Source: Thraustochytrium sp. TN22
Lineage: Eukaryota; Sar; Bigyra; Thraustochytrida; Thraustochytriidae
Length of the DNA stretch: 64,000 nucleotides
Reading direction: 5' to 3'
NCBI GenBank assembly: GCA_013306675.1
Contig: JABLUY010000102.1
Coordinates: 55,252 to 119,251 of the forward strand
The notes under the pieces were generated by a model, which was not told the origin of the DNA, did no database searches, and was given only the letters and a program-made list of their open reading frames with translations. The translations under genes and the position numbers were made by a program. Shown one piece after another: positions 38,004 to 46,469 of the stretch (position 1 is its first letter; every line of letters begins with the position of its first letter).

Positions 38004-39332
38004 TCAGCACTTGAAAAGTTCGCGCAGATGGTCCTGAAAAGCAGCCGAGAGAAAAAGAGGAGCCGCGCTTGCGAATACTTCATGCAGGCGAGGAGGAGCG
38101 ACTCCTCGTTCGCTGGGAGAACCGAGCGCGACGTGTTCACCTCCTCGCTCGCTGGGAGAACCGAGCGCGCCGTGTTCGCCGTTCGCCTCGCGTTCGCCCG
38201 CCGCGTCTTGCAGGACGCGAAGAACGGGGTCCAAGACAACGGCAAGCACGTCTCGCACGGTGCGGTAGCAGACGGACTCGCGAAGCGCCGTCGCGTCCGG
38301 CATGGTAGCGTGGCCGCCGAGCGCCGGGCCGTGGTTAATCTCGAGCAGCTGCAGCGCGAGTTGATCGTCATCACGCACGAGAAAGTCGAAGCCAAAGACC
38401 TCGAAGGCGTCCGGGGTAGGGAAGAAGTCTTGCTTGGGCGCCGCCTCGGAGAGCGCCACGAAGACGGCTCGCACCGCGCGATCTACGTTGGCGCGTAGAC
38501 GGGCCTCCGCTCGGCTGGGTGCTCCGCGCGCGGCGTCCACAGCAAGCTCCAGGTCTGCGAGCGTGGGCTGCGCCGCGTCGGCCGCGTAGGCTTCATGGCG
38601 GCTCTGCACGATGTGGTTGGTCACATGTACGAAGGCGTCGGCCCAGTCGCCACGCCGGTACGGCTCGCAAGCCACGTGCAGCAAGATGTCATCATGCACG
38701 AAGACGCGCAGGCGGCCGAGCGCCAGGACGTTGACGCGCATGTGGAACTTGCGGCCGCGATACAGCAGCGGGTTCTCGACGAGCGCCTGCAGCAGCCAGG
38801 GGCGCACTTGCGCGGCGTCGGCCTCGTCGCGCGGCAGCGCGGTGATCACAGCATCCAGGTCCAGGTCGCCGTCGCTGCCGTCCAGAAAGTGAACCTGCGT
38901 GGCGTTGTTGGCGTCGCTGGCCTTGAGCACCCAGACGCGACCCGGATCCCGCGCGAGGATGGCGGCCACCTGATCGCGGCACTTGACCTGGAAAAACTCG
39001 CAGAGCTGGTCGCGAGCGGCGCGGTGGTCCTCCGTGTCGCCGGCTGCTTCGTAGCAGCGCAGTGTGAGCATGAGGCGCACCTTGTCAGAAACCGCCGCAT
39101 GGGCCACGTAGCTGGCCACGATCATGCGGCCCTGCAGCGCATGCTGCCAGCGGATACGCGAGTACGGCGCCCACTGCAGCACGCAGTCCTCCGCCTGTGG
39201 CAGCCGCGGCTGCATGCCCCACTCCTTGCGCAGCACTTGCAGCATGGCCACCCTCACATTCTCCACCGGATACGCGCAGAAGAAGCCGAGCCTGTCCATG
39301 AGCAGGCCGCCGTTGTCCTCCGCCTCCGCCAT
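38004..39332 (-). CDS. Tubulin-tyrosine-ligase (TTL) family protein
   Basis: A 442-aa ATP-grasp ligase of the TTL/TTLL family, which adds tyrosine, glutamate or glycine to tubulin and other proteins. Conserved pieces in order are RVWVLKASDANNATQVHFLD (ATP-binding strand region), WLLQALVENPLLYRGRKFHM, then VFVHDDILLHVACEPY, and the Mg-binding end FEVFGFDFLVRDDDQLALQLLEINHGP with D, E and N ligands. The tail (~380-420) contains two close copies of EHxALGSPSERG, visible as a DNA tandem repeat near 38,100-38,175. Which amino acid is added cannot be read here. The presence of TTL enzymes is compatible with a flagellate stage, but that is weak evidence. Confidence 0.8.
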   Translation of the reverse strand: MAEAEDNGGLLMDRLGFFCAYPVENVRVAMLQVLRKEWGMQPRLPQAEDCVLQWAPYSRIRWQHALQGRMIVASYVAHAAVSDKVRLMLTLRCYEAAGDTEDHRAARDQLCEFFQVKCRDQVAAILARDPGRVWVLKASDANNATQVHFLDGSDGDLDLDAVITALPRDEADAAQVRPWLLQALVENPLLYRGRKFHMRVNVLALGRLRVFVHDDILLHVACEPYRRGDWADAFVHVTNHIVQSRHEAYAADAAQPTLADLELAVDAARGAPSRAEARLRANVDRAVRAVFVALSEAAPKQDFFPTPDAFEVFGFDFLVRDDDQLALQLLEINHGPALGGHATMPDATALRESVCYRTVRDVLAVVLDPVLRVLQDAAGEREANGEHGALGSPSERGGEHVALGSPSERGVAPPRLHEVFASAAPLFLSAAFQDHLRELFKC

Positions 39333-40430
39333 GCCCGTGCGAGCGAGCGAGCGAACGAACGCAGGAACCCTCGCGCCCGCCCAGTCCGTCGGCGGCTCGC
39401 GCGCCGCCGCCGCTGCTCTGTCCCGTGCGGTGTGCCGCTCTGCGAGCGCGCGGCTGCAGTGGCGCCGCTTGCAGGCAGGCAGGCAGCTCAGGCAGGCAGC
39501 TTGCTCCTCGTGGCGTGTCCCTCACTCCCTGTCCGCACCATCACGCGCGGCACACCGCCACGGTGCGCGCGCGCCTCGCCGTGCTCGAATCAGGCAGCCG
39601 GCGCGGCAACGGCTGCCGGCGGCGGCCGCCCCCTCCTCTCCTCTCCTCCCGCGCCGCGCCGCGCCGCGCTGCGCCGCCCCCGCGCGCGGCCGCCGCGGTC
39701 GGCCGAGCGCGGCCGCGCGTCCCAGGTCTGCTGCTCTCCAAGTTGAATCGCTTTCGAAACGAATTTGAAGGCGGCGACAACGACTCAAGCGGCACCTCGT
39801 CTTCGTAAAGGTGAATTTCGAAATTCGAAAAGGCCAAGCCCGCCTGGCCGCCCGCCTTCCCGCCCGCGCGCGCGGCAATGGCGCGACGACGGCGCGGCGC
39901 GGCGGCCCGCGGCGCACGAGCCCTCGCGGCGCGGCGCTCCCGCGCGGGGAAGCGAAGGCCGGCGCGGCGGCCGCGAGCGAGGGCTGCACGCGCCCGCGCA
40001 CACCTGCTGAGAGGCGGTGGCCATACGATCGATGGTTGATGATGCAGGATGCCAGTCCCGCTCGGCCTCGCCGCGGCTTCGACGGTCTCCAGGTCTCAAA
40101 GCCTGAGAGCGCGAGCGCCCTCGTCGTCGGCGGCGGCGGCGGCGGCGACGGCGACGGCGACGGCAACGCTGCCCCCCCCCCCTCCATTCTCCCCGCTCTC
40201 GCGGCGGCCGCAGACCCGGACCTGCGAGGCGAGGCGAGGCGAGGCCCGAGAGGGGCGAGCGAGGGCGGCGCGCGCCCAGGCGAGTCGTGGCGCCGCAACG
40301 CGGAGCAGGAGCAGGAGCATTCGCAGCCAGGCGGGCGGCCTGGGCGGCCTGGGCGGCGTGGGCGGCGTGGGCGGCAGTTCGAGATCGACCGATCGATTGA
40401 TCGGTTGGTGGGTTGACGGGCGCAAGGAAA
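39333..40430. other. Divergent intergenic region
   Basis: 1.1 kb between TTL (left) and the LIM gene (right). It contains GC low complexity, a C run at 40174-40182, GGC/GAC triplet runs, and a 39730-39830 stretch of lower GC. Large open frames exist on both strands but are Arg/Ala/Pro-rich. A region at 40390-40402 (CGATCGATTGATCG-like) is partly palindromic. Confidence 0.45.
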
Positions 40431-42548
40431 ATGAGCGCGCAGGAGGGCAAGATGTGGGCGCGGCTGGCGAACGCGGCGAGCGCGGCGCGGAGCAGCCTGC
40501 CGCGGAGCGGCACCATGTTTCGGGGCAAAGAGGCGCCCGTGCTCAAGAGCAAGGTGCGCAGCATCGCGGTGCCGGCAGCGCTGGAGGAGGAACTGCGCGC
40601 GGAGGGCATGGACGCGAGCTTTTTCGTGGCGGCGTGGGACTTGCAGACGAGGGCCGTGGACATGCTCGTGGGCGTGGAGGAGCTGCTGCCCGTCGGGTTT
40701 GACGTGTACGTGGTGGGGTTGCAGAACTGCGTGAACCTCAAGGAGGTGGCGCGCATGTGCCAGAACTTCTTGTCGGGCAGCGACCACTACGAGGAGTTCT
40801 CGCACCTGATGCAGGGTACTGCGAACGGCGCCATGGCCATGATGGTCTTCGCGCGGCGCGAGCTCGTGACAGAGGGCGCCTTCGCCATGAACCAGGTCGA
40901 CTCGGCCAGCGACCGCCGCATGTCCACGGCGCGGCTGCTCAAGAAGCGCTCGCTCATCTCGCTCGAGTCGGCGCGGCACTCGCAGGCGTCCATGCCACGG
41001 CCGTCCGAGATGAACGGCGGCGCGCTGGCGCTGCGCTTTTCCTTTTACGAGACCGAAGTCCTCTTTGTGCACATCAAGGAGTCCTGCGTTGGCGAGCTCA
41101 ACGAGCTGCTGGAGCGCGTGCGTCCTGAGGATGCCGCACACGTCTTCCTCTTTGGCGACTTCGGCGAGGACGTTCTGGAGAACGCTGGCGAGCTCGCGCA
41201 GCGCCTTTTTCTCGAGGACTTTGACGCCGTCCCAGACCGCTTTCGCGACTCGCGCCGCATGGTGCTCACACGCTCGCAGAACGACTTTCTGCGCCACCGC
41301 CTGCGCCCCGACAAGCACGGCCACTACAGCATCTCCGGCACCGCGCTGGGCAAGGCGCGCGCGATCCCGCTGCCGCCGGCGCTCTTTTCCACCTACCGCG
41401 TGCAGGGCGCCTCCTCCTCGCCCACCTCGCGCGAGAGCCTTTCGGACGAGGACGTCGCGGACGCGACGCGCGTCGTCGTCGGCGGCAAGGGCGGCAAGGG
41501 CGGCGGCGGCCTCGGGCCCAGCGGCTCCTTCTTCGTCGTGCCGCCGCCGCCGCCGGACGCTGCGCATGACGCGACGCACCCGGCCAACCAGCCGCGCAAG
41601 GGGCTGAGCGTGCTGCTGCCGCGCGCTGAGATTCAGCCCGGCCTGGCCGACGTGCCGCCGCCGCCTCCGCCGCCGGAGCACCGCTACGACGACGATGACG
41701 ACGGCGACGAGCCGCCGCCGCCGCCCCCGGACCTGGACGAGGGGGGCGCTCATGACGCGCCGCCGCCGCCGCCGCCGCCCGAGCCCGCCGCCGGGCCCTC
41801 TCGCGTGCGCACGCGCGATTCCCGCGCGGCCGCTGGCGATGACTCCATCCTGCGCAAGGCCGTCAAGTCGCTGCGCTTCGTCGTCGAGGCCGCCAACGGC
41901 CGTAGCAGGCCGGAAATCCTCGGCACCTGCTCCGTCTGCGGCGACCCCATCGTTGAGTCCACCGACTACTTCCGTTCCATGAAGCGCGACTACCACCGCG
42001 GCTGCGTGCGTTGCGACGACTGTGACCAGCCGCTCACCACGCAGTTCTACGTCATTGAGGGCAAGATGCTCTGCCAGGCCTCCTACGAGCGCCTCTACCT
42101 CACGCAGCGCTGCGCGGTCTGCGGCGAGGTCGCTGACCCGCAGGAGACCCTGCTCAAGGTTGAGGGCCACGTCTTTCACCAGAACTGCTTCTCCTGTGGC
42201 GCCTGCGCCCAGCCGCTCTCCTTCCTCTCCGAGGACGGCACGACCTTTGAGACCGCCGACTGCGTGCTCGACGCCGAGAAGGGCCCGCTCTGCGCGCTCC
42301 ACGCTGCGAAGCACAAGTGCACCGGCTGCGGCGACCCCATTCTCAACGGCGAGCTGATCGAGGCCCCGCAGGGCGACGGCTCCTCGCTCCCCTTCCACCA
42401 GACCTGCTTCCGCTGCGCCTCCTGCGACGTTCCCATCGTCGACCTCGGGGGCGAGTACGTCATCGACCGGGGCACGGTTCTGTGCAAGCCGGACTACGAC
42501 GAGCTCGTCGCCAAGGCCAAGACCGACCTTTCGGCGGACGGCCGCTGA
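40431..42548 (+). CDS. Pseudo-inositol-5-phosphatase fused to proline-rich region and three LIM domains
   Basis: A 705-aa product starting MSAQEGKMWARL. Residues ~60-310 follow the order of an inositol-polyphosphate 5-phosphatase (IPPc) domain: FFVAAWDLQT, DVYVVGLQN, MMVFARREL, GGALALRFSFYETEVLFV, and HVFLFGDFGEDVLE. In every catalytic block the expected residues are changed: the WNxN Asn is D70, the QE Glu is N99, the NSHLAA block reads VHIKES, and GDxNYR reads GDFGED. It is therefore predicted to be catalytically dead. Residues ~350-470 hold proline runs like an FH1 or profilin/SH3-binding region. Residues ~500-700 are three LIM domains (starting CSVCGD, CAVCGE, CTGCGD), two zincs each. A phosphoinositide-linked cytoskeletal scaffold is my inference. 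Confidence 0.8.
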   Translation: MSAQEGKMWARLANAASAARSSLPRSGTMFRGKEAPVLKSKVRSIAVPAALEEELRAEGMDASFFVAAWDLQTRAVDMLVGVEELLPVGFDVYVVGLQNCVNLKEVARMCQNFLSGSDHYEEFSHLMQGTANGAMAMMVFARRELVTEGAFAMNQVDSASDRRMSTARLLKKRSLISLESARHSQASMPRPSEMNGGALALRFSFYETEVLFVHIKESCVGELNELLERVRPEDAAHVFLFGDFGEDVLENAGELAQRLFLEDFDAVPDRFRDSRRMVLTRSQNDFLRHRLRPDKHGHYSISGTALGKARAIPLPPALFSTYRVQGASSSPTSRESLSDEDVADATRVVVGGKGGKGGGGLGPSGSFFVVPPPPPDAAHDATHPANQPRKGLSVLLPRAEIQPGLADVPPPPPPPEHRYDDDDDGDEPPPPPPDLDEGGAHDAPPPPPPPEPAAGPSRVRTRDSRAAAGDDSILRKAVKSLRFVVEAANGRSRPEILGTCSVCGDPIVESTDYFRSMKRDYHRGCVRCDDCDQPLTTQFYVIEGKMLCQASYERLYLTQRCAVCGEVADPQETLLKVEGHVFHQNCFSCGACAQPLSFLSEDGTTFETADCVLDAEKGPLCALHAAKHKCTGCGDPILNGELIEAPQGDGSSLPFHQTCFRCASCDVPIVDLGGEYVIDRGTVLCKPDYDELVAKAKTDLSADGR

Positions 42549-42715: not shown

Positions 42716-43330
42716 TCACCACAGGGCTTTCCGCTGCTGCCGAACGTAGTTCTCCGCCACCAGGTGCCATAGGCACACGAAGGCGAGCATGAGGCTTGGT
42801 CGCTCACACCCGGGCTGCAGCTCAACTGTCTTTTGGCCCTTGCCCGCCCTCATGACCCCGACGCCCGCATCGCCCAGCCGCAGCTCGTAAACGCCCGTCT
42901 CTCCCTTGACTGGCCGCACGCTCGCCTCGCCCGCGTCGCCGTACCCCCGCGCCAGCGTGCGCATGTGCATGGACGTGGCTCCGCCCGCGACCACCGGCAC
43001 CACCTCCAGCACCTGCGTGCCGTTCAGCAGGTGCATGGTCACCCCGGACGACTCCTCGCCCCCGCCGCACCACGCGCCCGACTCGTACACGCGGACCACC
43101 TTGTCCTGGTCCCCGTTCAGCAGGTAGCTGCCGCCGCACAGGTACCTGGACACTGCCATCACCACCTCGCCCTTGGCATCCTCCATGCGCACGCCCTGTA
43201 GCGCCTTGCGCACCACGAACGAGGTGCCCGCCACGACTCCCGGGAAGAGGCCCTCCAGCGCCGGCGCCGCCTCGGCCAAGGGCCCGGGCTCCGTTGCGGC
43301 CGCCACCGGCATGCCCGCCGCCTGCGCCAT
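42716..43330 (-). CDS. Small unknown protein, member 1 of a two-copy family
   Basis: A 204-aa, beta-rich product (VYELRLGDAGVGVMRAG and similar strands) with little charge clustering. It is homologous to the protein at 51444: both have an LxPGVxxGxxxxL start to the core (GLFPGVVAGTSFVVRKAL here, LLPGVTGGSLYELPRTF there), a shared DAKGEVVMAVSR / HADGEVVMALKH strand, and a common C-terminal helix (VELQPGCERPSLMLAFVCLW / VELYKDISRPATVLACAWLF). The strand pattern and buried C-terminal helix resemble the tubby-like/LURP-one or scramblase fold, a domain that binds membranes, but I could not confirm this. No signal peptide. Confidence 0.7.
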   Translation of the reverse strand: MAQAAGMPVAAATEPGPLAEAAPALEGLFPGVVAGTSFVVRKALQGVRMEDAKGEVVMAVSRYLCGGSYLLNGDQDKVVRVYESGAWCGGGEESSGVTMHLLNGTQVLEVVPVVAGGATSMHMRTLARGYGDAGEASVRPVKGETGVYELRLGDAGVGVMRAGKGQKTVELQPGCERPSLMLAFVCLWHLVAENYVRQQRKALW

Positions 43331-43769: not shown

Positions 43770-46469
43770 CTACCCTTGGACCGCCGAGGCAGAGGAGGAG
43801 GACAAAGGGAGAGGTGCAGCTGACGAGGAGGAGGAGGATGAGGGGGTGGCGGCAGATGATGCAATCTTCTCAATGTCGCGTTTCAGGTCTTGCACGGTGC
43901 GAGCGAAGAGCGTGGCGGCCTCGACCTCACCCTTGGCCCAGGCGTCCTTGCGCTTCTGCTCGCACACGCTCAATTGTTCGATGAGGTCAATGCGGCGCTT
44001 GAGGTTGTGCACCATGAGGTCGTGCTCGGCCTGGCGCATGGCAAGCTCCGACTTGAGCTTGTCGACGTCCTCTTTGCGCCTGCGCTCGGCCTCGTACAGC
44101 GCGGCCAGCCGCTCCTCAAACACTGCCTTGCGCTGTTCGCGCGCCTCGCGGCTGCGCTCAATCTCGAGCCGAGCCTCTTCGAGACGTGCCTGCTTGCGAT
44201 TGAACGTCGCTGTGTTTGTGTTCTCCTCCGCCTCTTCAGCCGCCAGCGTGCGGCGACGGCGCTTCTGCACGGGCCGTTCTGTCTCGGCGATGGGCTGCAA
44301 GACCGACTTGGATTTCCGGAAAATCCGCCGCGCGCGCTCGTCACGCATGTGCACGCTCAGCACATACCTGAGCGTGTCGACATGGAAAGGGGTGTTGGAG
44401 ACACAGGCGCGAGCAACGGCGTGCACCGGGTTGTCATTGACAACCTGGGCGGTCTCGTTGGGCTCGCGGTCGCCAGTGTTTGCGCTGGGCTCCATGGTGA
44501 TGTCCGTGATGGCGGCCAGGAGCGCCGCATCAACACGGACCCTGGCCTTGGCAGCCAGACTCTTGCAGCGCAAAACATCGTCCCTAAGGTCCGTGAAAAT
44601 CGCAGCGACCTCCTCCCCACCGAACACCTCGTGCAAGCCGCTTGGCGCGCGCGTCGGCGTGATGGGCGAGTCGGTGCGCCAGCGTGTCGGCGGGGCCCAG
44701 CTTGGCTCGCGCACGACGTCCAGGACGCGTTGCCAGTAGTCCAACGAAAGATAGGCGCCGCGCTCGACTGCGTGCACCATCAGGTCGTACAGGTATGCAA
44801 AGCGCCAGTCGTTGTCATCCACGTGGATGAATGCCTCGAGCACACGCACCAGGAGACAGCCGTACTCCGCTGCCCGCTTGTCAATGCCAAAGTCCACATC
44901 GGGTTGGCCTTGCGCTGAGGCGCTGCGCGAGGTCGGCCGATTGATCGCCCATGGTGTCGGCGTCGTGGGTGGCTGCAGCTGTCCCGGCGCCGTCGCCGGC
45001 GACGGCGCCGGGGACGGCGACTGCGTCACCGGCGCTTGCATTGGTGGCCTCGACGCAAGCGCCAGAGATGCGAGAGCTGGTACTGATCTCGATGCTGGTG
45101 ATGGTGAAGGCGAGGGCAAGGATGATGATGATGACGACGACGACGACGACGACAACGACGTGGAGGAGGAGGAGGAGGAGGAGGAGGAGGAGGTAGTGGT
45201 GGTGGTGGTGTTGGTGGTGGATGAAGCGGGAACCGACGCAAGGACCGCGAGCCCCACAGGACCCGAGGAGCCCAGGGCATGCGGCGAGGCGGCACGCGGT
45301 GAGGCAGCGCCAGACGATGCGAAGCGCTGCGGCGTGTTAGCTGCTGGAACCGACGGGGCCTTCGGGGCCACGGGCGAGGGAGACTCGGTCGCCGCCGACG
45401 CCTCCAGCGGCGCGGGCCGCGAAGCAAGGGAGGAGGACCTCTCAGGCGCGGCCGCTGCAGAGGGCAGCGCCGCGGGCTTCGATGGGTGCGCCTGCGTCGC
45501 CTCTCCGCCCGCGCGCACCTCGGCGAGGTCTTCGCTGAAGGAGCGAGCCTTGTCCAGCACAGCAGCAGCCCATCTGATGCCGGTGGCAACATGTGCGTCG
45601 AAGGCACGAAAGCTCCAGTCATTGATGACTTCGATCCGGCCGTCGCGCAACTCCACAAAAGGTAGCATGTAGAGCTCCAGGCCGATGGCGACGTAATCGT
45701 AAATGGTCACAGGCGCCTGGCCGAGCTCCCAGGGATCGGGGTTGCCCTGCTCCGGCCGCAGGTTGGTGCTGACGATGGGCTTCTGCTGTGGGCGGATGGG
45801 CTCGGCGAAGCTCTTGCCGTACAGAACGCAAAACAGGCGCAGCAGCAGGGAGCCGCTGGGCAGCGGCTTGGACACGACCTTCTCGATGAGCGCCTTGACC
45901 GAGATCATGGCAGCCGGCGGCTCGTTGCCCGGGAAGGCATTCTTGAAGAGCCGCAGCGCCCAGAGGCCCAGCTCAGTCTGCACCTTGGGCAGGCGCACAA
46001 AGCCGTAGAACTCGTCCAAGACCACCTTGAGCTCCTTCTTGGGCCGCGGCAGCACGCTCGTCGCCCAGGCCTGGTCCAGGCCCGCCTTGGAGATGCCCAT
46101 GTTGCGCCAGCTGCGTTCGATACCGCTGCGCAAGATGTCCAGCCACAGCTCCGAGGCCCGCAGCGCGTCGTGATTCCCGCTCTCGCCCGTCGCCTCGGCG
46201 TCCGAGTCGCCCGCGTCGCTCGGGGAGTACGGGGAGTGGACGGCCGCCAGCTGCTCACCGGCCTCCGCGAGCGCGTCCAGCGCGCAGCCCTCCGCCTCGC
46301 TCATGCGCAAGGGCGCCTCGGGTCGCGGCGCGGCCGCGGCGGGCTGCGCCTTGATCGACCTTGCGTCCAGCCCTCCCTCGCGCGCGCCGCGCGCCGGCCC
46401 CTCGCGTCGCGTGCCGCCGTGGCCGTCGTCTCCTTCGCCCTCGTCCGGCCCATGCGCCATCACGACCAT
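43770..46469 (-). CDS. Unknown protein with Ser/Thr runs and C-terminal coiled coil
   Basis: An 899-aa product from the ATG beginning MVVMAHGPDE; a later ATG (MSEAEGCALD) is an alternative. Residues ~100-310 look folded and helical, with EFYGFVRLPKVQTELGLWAL and IYDYVAIGLELYMLPFVELR. The middle is a long disordered linker with Thr and Ser runs from ACC/TCC triplets (~residues 415-450). A second ordered part follows at ~525-720. The C-terminal ~120 residues are a strong coiled coil (ARLEEARLEIERSREAREQR, then YEAERRRKEDVDKLKSELAM) with a basic KRRRRR patch nearby, possibly a nuclear localisation signal. I do not recognise the family and assign no function. Confidence 0.65.
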   Translation of the reverse strand: MVVMAHGPDEGEGDDGHGGTRREGPARGAREGGLDARSIKAQPAAAAPRPEAPLRMSEAEGCALDALAEAGEQLAAVHSPYSPSDAGDSDAEATGESGNHDALRASELWLDILRSGIERSWRNMGISKAGLDQAWATSVLPRPKKELKVVLDEFYGFVRLPKVQTELGLWALRLFKNAFPGNEPPAAMISVKALIEKVVSKPLPSGSLLLRLFCVLYGKSFAEPIRPQQKPIVSTNLRPEQGNPDPWELGQAPVTIYDYVAIGLELYMLPFVELRDGRIEVINDWSFRAFDAHVATGIRWAAAVLDKARSFSEDLAEVRAGGEATQAHPSKPAALPSAAAAPERSSSLASRPAPLEASAATESPSPVAPKAPSVPAANTPQRFASSGAASPRAASPHALGSSGPVGLAVLASVPASSTTNTTTTTTSSSSSSSSSSTSLSSSSSSSSSSSLPSPSPSPASRSVPALASLALASRPPMQAPVTQSPSPAPSPATAPGQLQPPTTPTPWAINRPTSRSASAQGQPDVDFGIDKRAAEYGCLLVRVLEAFIHVDDNDWRFAYLYDLMVHAVERGAYLSLDYWQRVLDVVREPSWAPPTRWRTDSPITPTRAPSGLHEVFGGEEVAAIFTDLRDDVLRCKSLAAKARVRVDAALLAAITDITMEPSANTGDREPNETAQVVNDNPVHAVARACVSNTPFHVDTLRYVLSVHMRDERARRIFRKSKSVLQPIAETERPVQKRRRRTLAAEEAEENTNTATFNRKQARLEEARLEIERSREAREQRKAVFEERLAALYEAERRRKEDVDKLKSELAMRQAEHDLMVHNLKRRIDLIEQLSVCEQKRKDAWAKGEVEAATLFARTVQDLKRDIEKIASSAATPSSSSSSSAAPLPLSSSSASAVQG
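44983..45012. repeat. 30-bp perfect palindrome inside a coding region
   Basis: Reads CCCGGCGCCGTCGCC followed by its exact reverse complement with no spacer, within the low-complexity linker of the unknown gene. Confidence 0.9.

Follow-up and report, generated by a model that had tools for sequence, protein, structure and literature searches.

The inositol 5-phosphatases of the OCRL/INPP5B type are built around an IPPc domain (PF22669), whereas tandem LIM domains are typical of cytoskeletal adaptors such as zyxin, paxillin and FHL, and to our knowledge none of these adaptors contains an IPPc domain. Myotubularins, which belong to a family and fold unrelated to the 5-phosphatases, include members without enzymatic activity. 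The review PMC8269279 describes pseudoenzymes for several phosphatase families, the myotubularins included, and presents MTMR5, 9 and 10-13 as phosphoinositide phosphatases without catalysis that act as regulators; in its main text the term 5-phosphatase is absent. The active site has been described for Synaptojanin1, in which N543 and E591 lie beside the Mg ion and the water is activated by D730, the general base, together with N732. Contacts to the 5-phosphate come from H689, N732, R734, Y784 and H859, and Y784 also secures the 4-phosphate, jointly with K798 and R800 (passage in PMC7781601). Word searches of open full text with few subscription papers found neither a dead 5-phosphatase domain nor an IPPc-LIM fusion among the matches listed, which is not proof of absence. 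In open full text there was also no match for LIM with strained actin, and nothing relevant for thraustochytrids together with LIM domains, as judged by title and start of abstract.

The gene analyzed here lies in a stretch of 64,000 nucleotides (the window) of the genome of Thraustochytrium sp. TN22, which was searched as a whole (37.9 Mb, 453 contigs). The gene, its neighbors and its N-terminal features are the following.

40431..42548, plus strand: whole gene, a single open frame of 705 aa (P0001)
40449..40565, plus strand: basic N-terminal leader, residues 7-45, net charge +8
40620..40727, plus strand: first IPPc segment, residues 64-99, FFVAAWD ... DVYVVGLQN
40911..41009, plus strand: basic Ser-rich insert before the NKGG-like segment, residues 161-193
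41013..41084, plus strand: second IPPc segment, residues 195-218, NGGALALRFSFYETEVLFVHIKES, catalytic His aligned to K216
41139..41171, plus strand: third IPPc segment, residues 237-247, HVFLFGDFGED, D243 kept, Asn replaced by G245 and Arg by D247
41172..41465, plus strand: place where the remaining IPPc domain would be expected
38004-39332, minus strand: tubulin-tyrosine-ligase-family frame, divergent neighbor of the gene (Pfam TTL, 103.6 bits)
42716-43330 and 43770-46469, minus strand: neighboring frames without a Pfam match at E 0.01

The frame starts with an ATG at 40431, and the in-frame stop upstream of it ends at 40400. When codon log-odds were trained on 5-phosphatase coding sequence of the same genome (five stretches, namely one whole frame and four domains), 14 of 15 pieces of 150 bases, the linker included, scored best in this frame among all six, and the lone exception was the last piece, which extends beyond the stop. 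The log-odds per codon were 0.43-0.84 over 40581-41330 (IPPc part) versus 0.48-0.75 over 41931-42530 (LIM part), and the coding signal is thus as strong in the pseudo-IPPc part as in the LIM part. The single gene that the initial annotation had placed here was confirmed as coding throughout.

The 5-phosphatases of the own genome served as the reference. PF22669 gave 11 matches in seven proteins, six of which look active, each having TWN, TFN or SWN together with QE, NKG, GDxNYR, DR and SDH. The seventh is also a pseudo-IPPc protein.

L017:924-3338 (contig C107), minus strand: second pseudo-IPPc protein, full length, 804 aa, PF22669 111.4 bits

In the C107 protein the motifs TWN, QE, HLAA, GDxNYR, DR and SDH read TFC, QS, ARFSG, GSLNYQ, AR and SSH, so that catalytic residues are replaced there too (Asn to Cys, Glu to Ser, His to Arg, Asp to Ser, Arg to Gln), while the Asn of GDxNYR, PTY and the His of SDH are retained. 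It differs from the window protein in being full length and matching Pfam, whereas the window domain is truncated and has no Pfam match, and it lacks a LIM match, with IQ and chromo-like matches below the cut-off upstream instead. C107 is the clearer pseudo-IPPc case. In this genome, C124:26703-41142 also holds a PfaA-type polyunsaturated fatty-acid synthase as a single frame of 3044 aa (TIGR02813, 2539.7 bits with the pieces summed), and near it lies a frame of 2083 aa on the opposite strand with a weaker match, a layout that probably points to a thraustochytrid.

General searches with the N-terminal region were negative. The Pfam IPPc model (PF22669) did not match the window protein, and the sole Pfam match of this region was a bacterial HORMA model far below the cut-off (E 0.13-0.14). 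With phmmer against PDB sequences one match was obtained, an aminotransferase with E 0.18. Residues 1-330 found in the own genome themselves and, at E 0.35, a real 5-phosphatase on contig C155, and nothing else. Searches of viral contigs with the protein and with an alignment of the six active domains, and of prokaryotic genome contigs with this alignment (collections that hold no eukaryotes), gave 3, 19 and 5 candidate stretches, none of which was confirmed as a relative.

A profile was built from the six active-looking own domains, with the window protein and C107 left out. It scored the window domain with 22.2 bits and the full protein with 19.6 bits; the reversed domain reached -2.4 bits and the best of 1000 shuffles 4.7 bits. 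Among 1428 frames of at least 60 codons from the window and the fetched loci, including 17 loci retrieved for further endonuclease/exonuclease/phosphatase superfamily members and excluding IPPc loci and duplicate gene copies, the window protein ranked first with its 19.6 bits, and the best of the other 1427 frames had 7.2 bits. In a single hhalign comparison with all seven own IPPc domains, C107 included, the probability was 96.4 and the E-value 1.3e-9, and the alignment was colinear over FFVAAW, DVYVVGLQ, NGGALALRF, VLFV and HVFLFGDF; with the six active domains alone it was limited to 42 columns at the beginning, with a probability of 94.6 and an E-value of 6.7e-8. The IPPc strand order that had been read from FFVxxW, DVYVVGLQ, GGALALRF and FLFGDF was borne out by these comparisons.

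The three segments were also scored one by one. The first reached 25.2 bits (residues 35-200 searched; best shuffle 8.2), the second, corresponding to NKGG/HLAA, 9.8 bits (residues 180-262; best shuffle 9.1), and the third, corresponding to GDxNYR, 6.8 bits (residues 200-345; best shuffle 5.6); in each case 0 of 1000 shuffles reached the observed score. The margins of the second and third segments over the best shuffle are small, and because each profile was searched only where it was expected, this test partly presupposes the order in which the three segments occur. The six-enzyme profile, hhalign and the frame ranking are free of this flaw, and the weight of the IPPc assignment thus lies on the first segment and the whole-domain comparisons. 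In pairwise comparisons the nearest relative was C165, an OCRL-type IPPc-ASH-RhoGAP protein (z 7.0), followed by C155 (z 6.1), and 0 of 300 shuffles reached either score. The score to C176 (z 3.2) was reached by 5 of 300 shuffles, and those to C101, C41, C34 and C107 were weak (z -0.3 to 2.0), C107 having z 2.0.

N195 pairs with the Asn of NKGG. Of the 36 columns that are invariant in the six active domains, the window protein is identical in 13, a count no higher than shuffled sequences can give (100 shuffles averaged 8.7 and reached up to 15). The evidence for IPPc is thus the profile score and not the invariant residues, and this result is consistent with a domain no longer under catalytic constraint. 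In a manual count with no matched control, 37 of the 43 hydrophobic-core columns aligned up to residue 248 stayed hydrophobic, which suggests that the core is kept. The corresponding shuffle comparison (44 of 69 columns observed, against an average of 31.3 and a maximum of 40 out of about 58 in shuffles) is of limited value, since the column sets differ and fewer refinement rounds went into aligning the shuffles. Together, the above-chance similarity to the own-genome profiles argues that the window protein belongs to the IPPc family by ancestry.

Structure models were less informative. AlphaFold2 without an alignment gave mean pLDDT values of 36.4 for residues 42-330 and 39.7 for residues 58-262, i.e., neither model is confident, and in both the order of strands and helices matched what we take to be the first part of the IPPc fold. 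A Foldseek search of 350,542 PDB chains with these models listed INPP5B and INPP5E first by E-value (E 0.018-0.025, TM 0.17-0.26), but unrelated proteins a few ranks lower had higher probability, among them a Prc chain (0.84) and an anti-sigma-factor complex (0.98). This listing may be regarded as weak support for an IPPc fold.

The active-site residues of Synaptojanin1 were mapped to the window protein by motif position, an assignment of our own. N543 corresponds to D70, E591 to N99, H689 to K216, D730 to D243, N732 to G245 and R734 to D247, while K798 and R800 land in alignment gaps. The Mg ligands Asn (TWN) and Glu (QE) are therefore replaced, and of GDxNYR the Asp is retained while Asn and Arg are lost. 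In the statistically unsupported tail, MAFFT placed Y322 on Y784, S338-D339 on the Ser-Asp of SDH and E340 on H859, and these pairs were given no weight. Of the ten active-site residues named in the passage of PMC7781601, only one has an identical partner in a statistically supported stretch, namely D243. The proposal that all four catalytic blocks are replaced was thus correct for Asn, Glu, His and the Asn and Arg of GDxNYR, but it went too far for the Asp.

In addition, the initial annotation had overlooked that the last third of the IPPc domain is absent. The segment from GDxNYR to PTY (DQL...PTY) scored 4.0 bits, a non-significant value that 12 of 1000 shuffles reached. The segment from PAWTDRIL to SDHKPV gave no score in residues 245-480 nor in the three forward frames of 40431-42548, although the same test gave 26.2 bits for C107. 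The stretch for K798, R800 and H859 is missing, and thus the 4-phosphate-binding Lys and Arg are absent together with the C-terminal third. A frameshift or a missed exon within the gene that would hide this third was rejected, as the three forward frames had no match and the codon signal is continuous. In a loose test for an exon beyond the gene, the six-enzyme profile gave no other frame of the window more than 6.2 bits. The IPPc domain is thus real but truncated, consisting of its first two thirds. An ordinary active 5-phosphatase was ruled out by the loss of the catalytic residues and, with the C-terminal blocks missing as well, 5-phosphatase activity is very unlikely and the loss of catalysis almost certain. 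The likeness to the OCRL/INPP5B type is confined to the order and the hydrophobic pattern of these two thirds, and the window protein differs in the lost C-terminal third, in the mostly replaced active-site residues and in having LIM domains instead of an ASH or RhoGAP match. Like the inactive myotubularins it would be a phosphoinositide phosphatase relative without catalysis, but those have kept whole domains and have known partners.

The C-terminal half of the protein is arranged as follows.

41541..41780, plus strand: Pro/Gly/Asp-rich linker with four runs of 5-7 prolines
41841..41900, plus strand: basic amphipathic stretch directly before LIM1, residues 471-490, with a putative role in membrane contact
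41928..42083, plus strand: LIM1, residues 500-551, Ser at the eighth zinc-ligand position
42111..42302, plus strand: LIM2, residues 561-624, long second loop
42318..42494, plus strand: LIM3, residues 630-688

The proline runs, which had been noted behind the IPPc part, were located at residues 371-375, 409-415, 428-433 and 444-450. Pfam LIM (PF00412) gave 99.9 bits for the protein in three stretches, with single scores of 50 (LIM1), 34.3 (LIM2) and 38.9 bits (LIM3) at a curated cut-off of 22.9. According to the zinc-ligand pattern of LIM domains, all eight ligands are present in LIM2 and LIM3, the eighth being His and Asp, respectively. The C-terminal end of LIM1 reads LCQASY, which puts Ser at this position. 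Of the three LIM domains annotated as complete, LIM1 thus lacks the canonical eighth ligand, and this also distinguishes the protein from zyxin, paxillin and FHL. The proline-rich region upstream of tandem LIM domains is arranged in the manner of zyxin. The top-ranked LIM matches in a PDB sequence search were the LIM pairs of LMO4, ISL and LHX.

A genome-wide search gave 14 LIM matches, of which three lie in the window protein, two on C49 and the remaining nine at one place each, and among the best-scoring candidates the window protein is the only one with three. At E 0.01 or better, the LIM part matched nothing but itself in the own genome. Other LIM frames, some of them cut at locus ends, have one LIM stretch per frame read.

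L003:73-2841 (C393): LIM joined to PH (two stretches)
L004:1-1788 (C88): LIM joined to SH3 (two stretches; SH3-SH3-LIM)
L044:461-1369 (C111): LIM joined to Costars
L043:3623-9001 (C71): LIM joined to GYF

Joining LIM to signaling or actin modules is therefore a habit of this genome.

The combination of a pseudo-IPPc domain, proline runs and LIM domains supports a scaffold-like layout. We propose that the gene product is a non-enzymatic adaptor. Its N-terminal domain goes back to an inositol 5-phosphatase of the OCRL/INPP5 type, from which the catalytic residues and the C-terminal third have been lost. The remaining strand core from FFVAAW to GDFGED would most likely serve as a protein-docking surface, the flexible linker with its four poly-proline runs may bind profilin- or SH3-like partners, and the three tandem LIM domains may interact with another partner, probably at the actin cortex. 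Profilin and the Costars-LIM protein are present in the own genome, and the poly-proline runs, the LIM domains and profilin point to a protein scaffold near actin, a link drawn from LIM and poly-proline in general. We give this adaptor, with a truncated dead 5-phosphatase domain as docking module, about even chances; a counterpoint is that a domain without its last third might not fold.

Alternatively, the LIM array and the linker could do the work and the pseudo-IPPc part would be a decaying leftover of a fusion. The loss of the last third, the weak overall match without Pfam support and an identity at invariant columns no better than that of shuffles would all fit such a remnant, but the frame has stayed open, its coding signal matches that of the LIM part and the hydrophobicity of the strand core is retained, and we regard a mere leftover as rather unlikely. 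An unrelated orphan domain that resembles IPPc by chance is barely credible. It would account for the lack of a significant Pfam or PDB sequence match, for the unconfident AlphaFold2 models and for second and third segments that barely exceed the best shuffle, but not for a profile score 17 bits above the best of 1000 shuffles, for three segments at their expected places, for one colinear hhalign match, or for the first rank of 5-phosphatases, though weak, among the 350,542 chains.

The other two alternatives concern the function of the dead domain. The initial annotation had suggested a phosphoinositide-reading scaffold, in which the domain binds a membrane inositol lipid. The ancestral substrate class speaks for this, and residues 7-45 are a possible membrane or targeting segment, while residues 471-490 have the highest 18-residue hydrophobic moment of the whole protein; the leader, the basic insert 161-193 and this amphipathic stretch could touch a membrane, so that contact in a way other than through the pocket is conceivable. 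The pocket residues are gone, the 4-phosphate-binding Lys and Arg are missing with the last third, and the net charge of residues 58-248 is -11, whereas the N-terminal part ranges from +1 to +11 among the six active domains and is neutral (0) in C107, although the stretches are not exactly equal and the six active domains run from -7 to +10 over both parts. Lipid reading through the old IPPc pocket thus appears unlikely, and of the original model the scaffold was retained while the reader as a whole is very doubtful. By analogy, the dead domain might instead bind and steer an active 5-phosphatase, e.g., the own OCRL homologue, which is its closest pairwise match. We know of no pairing of dead with active 5-phosphatase domains. 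Inactive myotubularins pair with active relatives, as stated in the main text of PMC8269279, and by this comparison a steering subunit is conceivable but distinctly improbable.

The adaptor is therefore kept as the preferred reading. In a genome where a second 5-phosphatase, C107, is dead by different changes, it may represent a pseudoenzyme family within the inositol 5-phosphatases, in which a truncated dead IPPc docking module is wired to tandem LIM domains, a proposal that we see as evenly balanced. If the domain folds and binds, the IPPc fold would have been reused as a binding module, and the protein would be a protist example of an adaptor made from a lipid-signaling enzyme.
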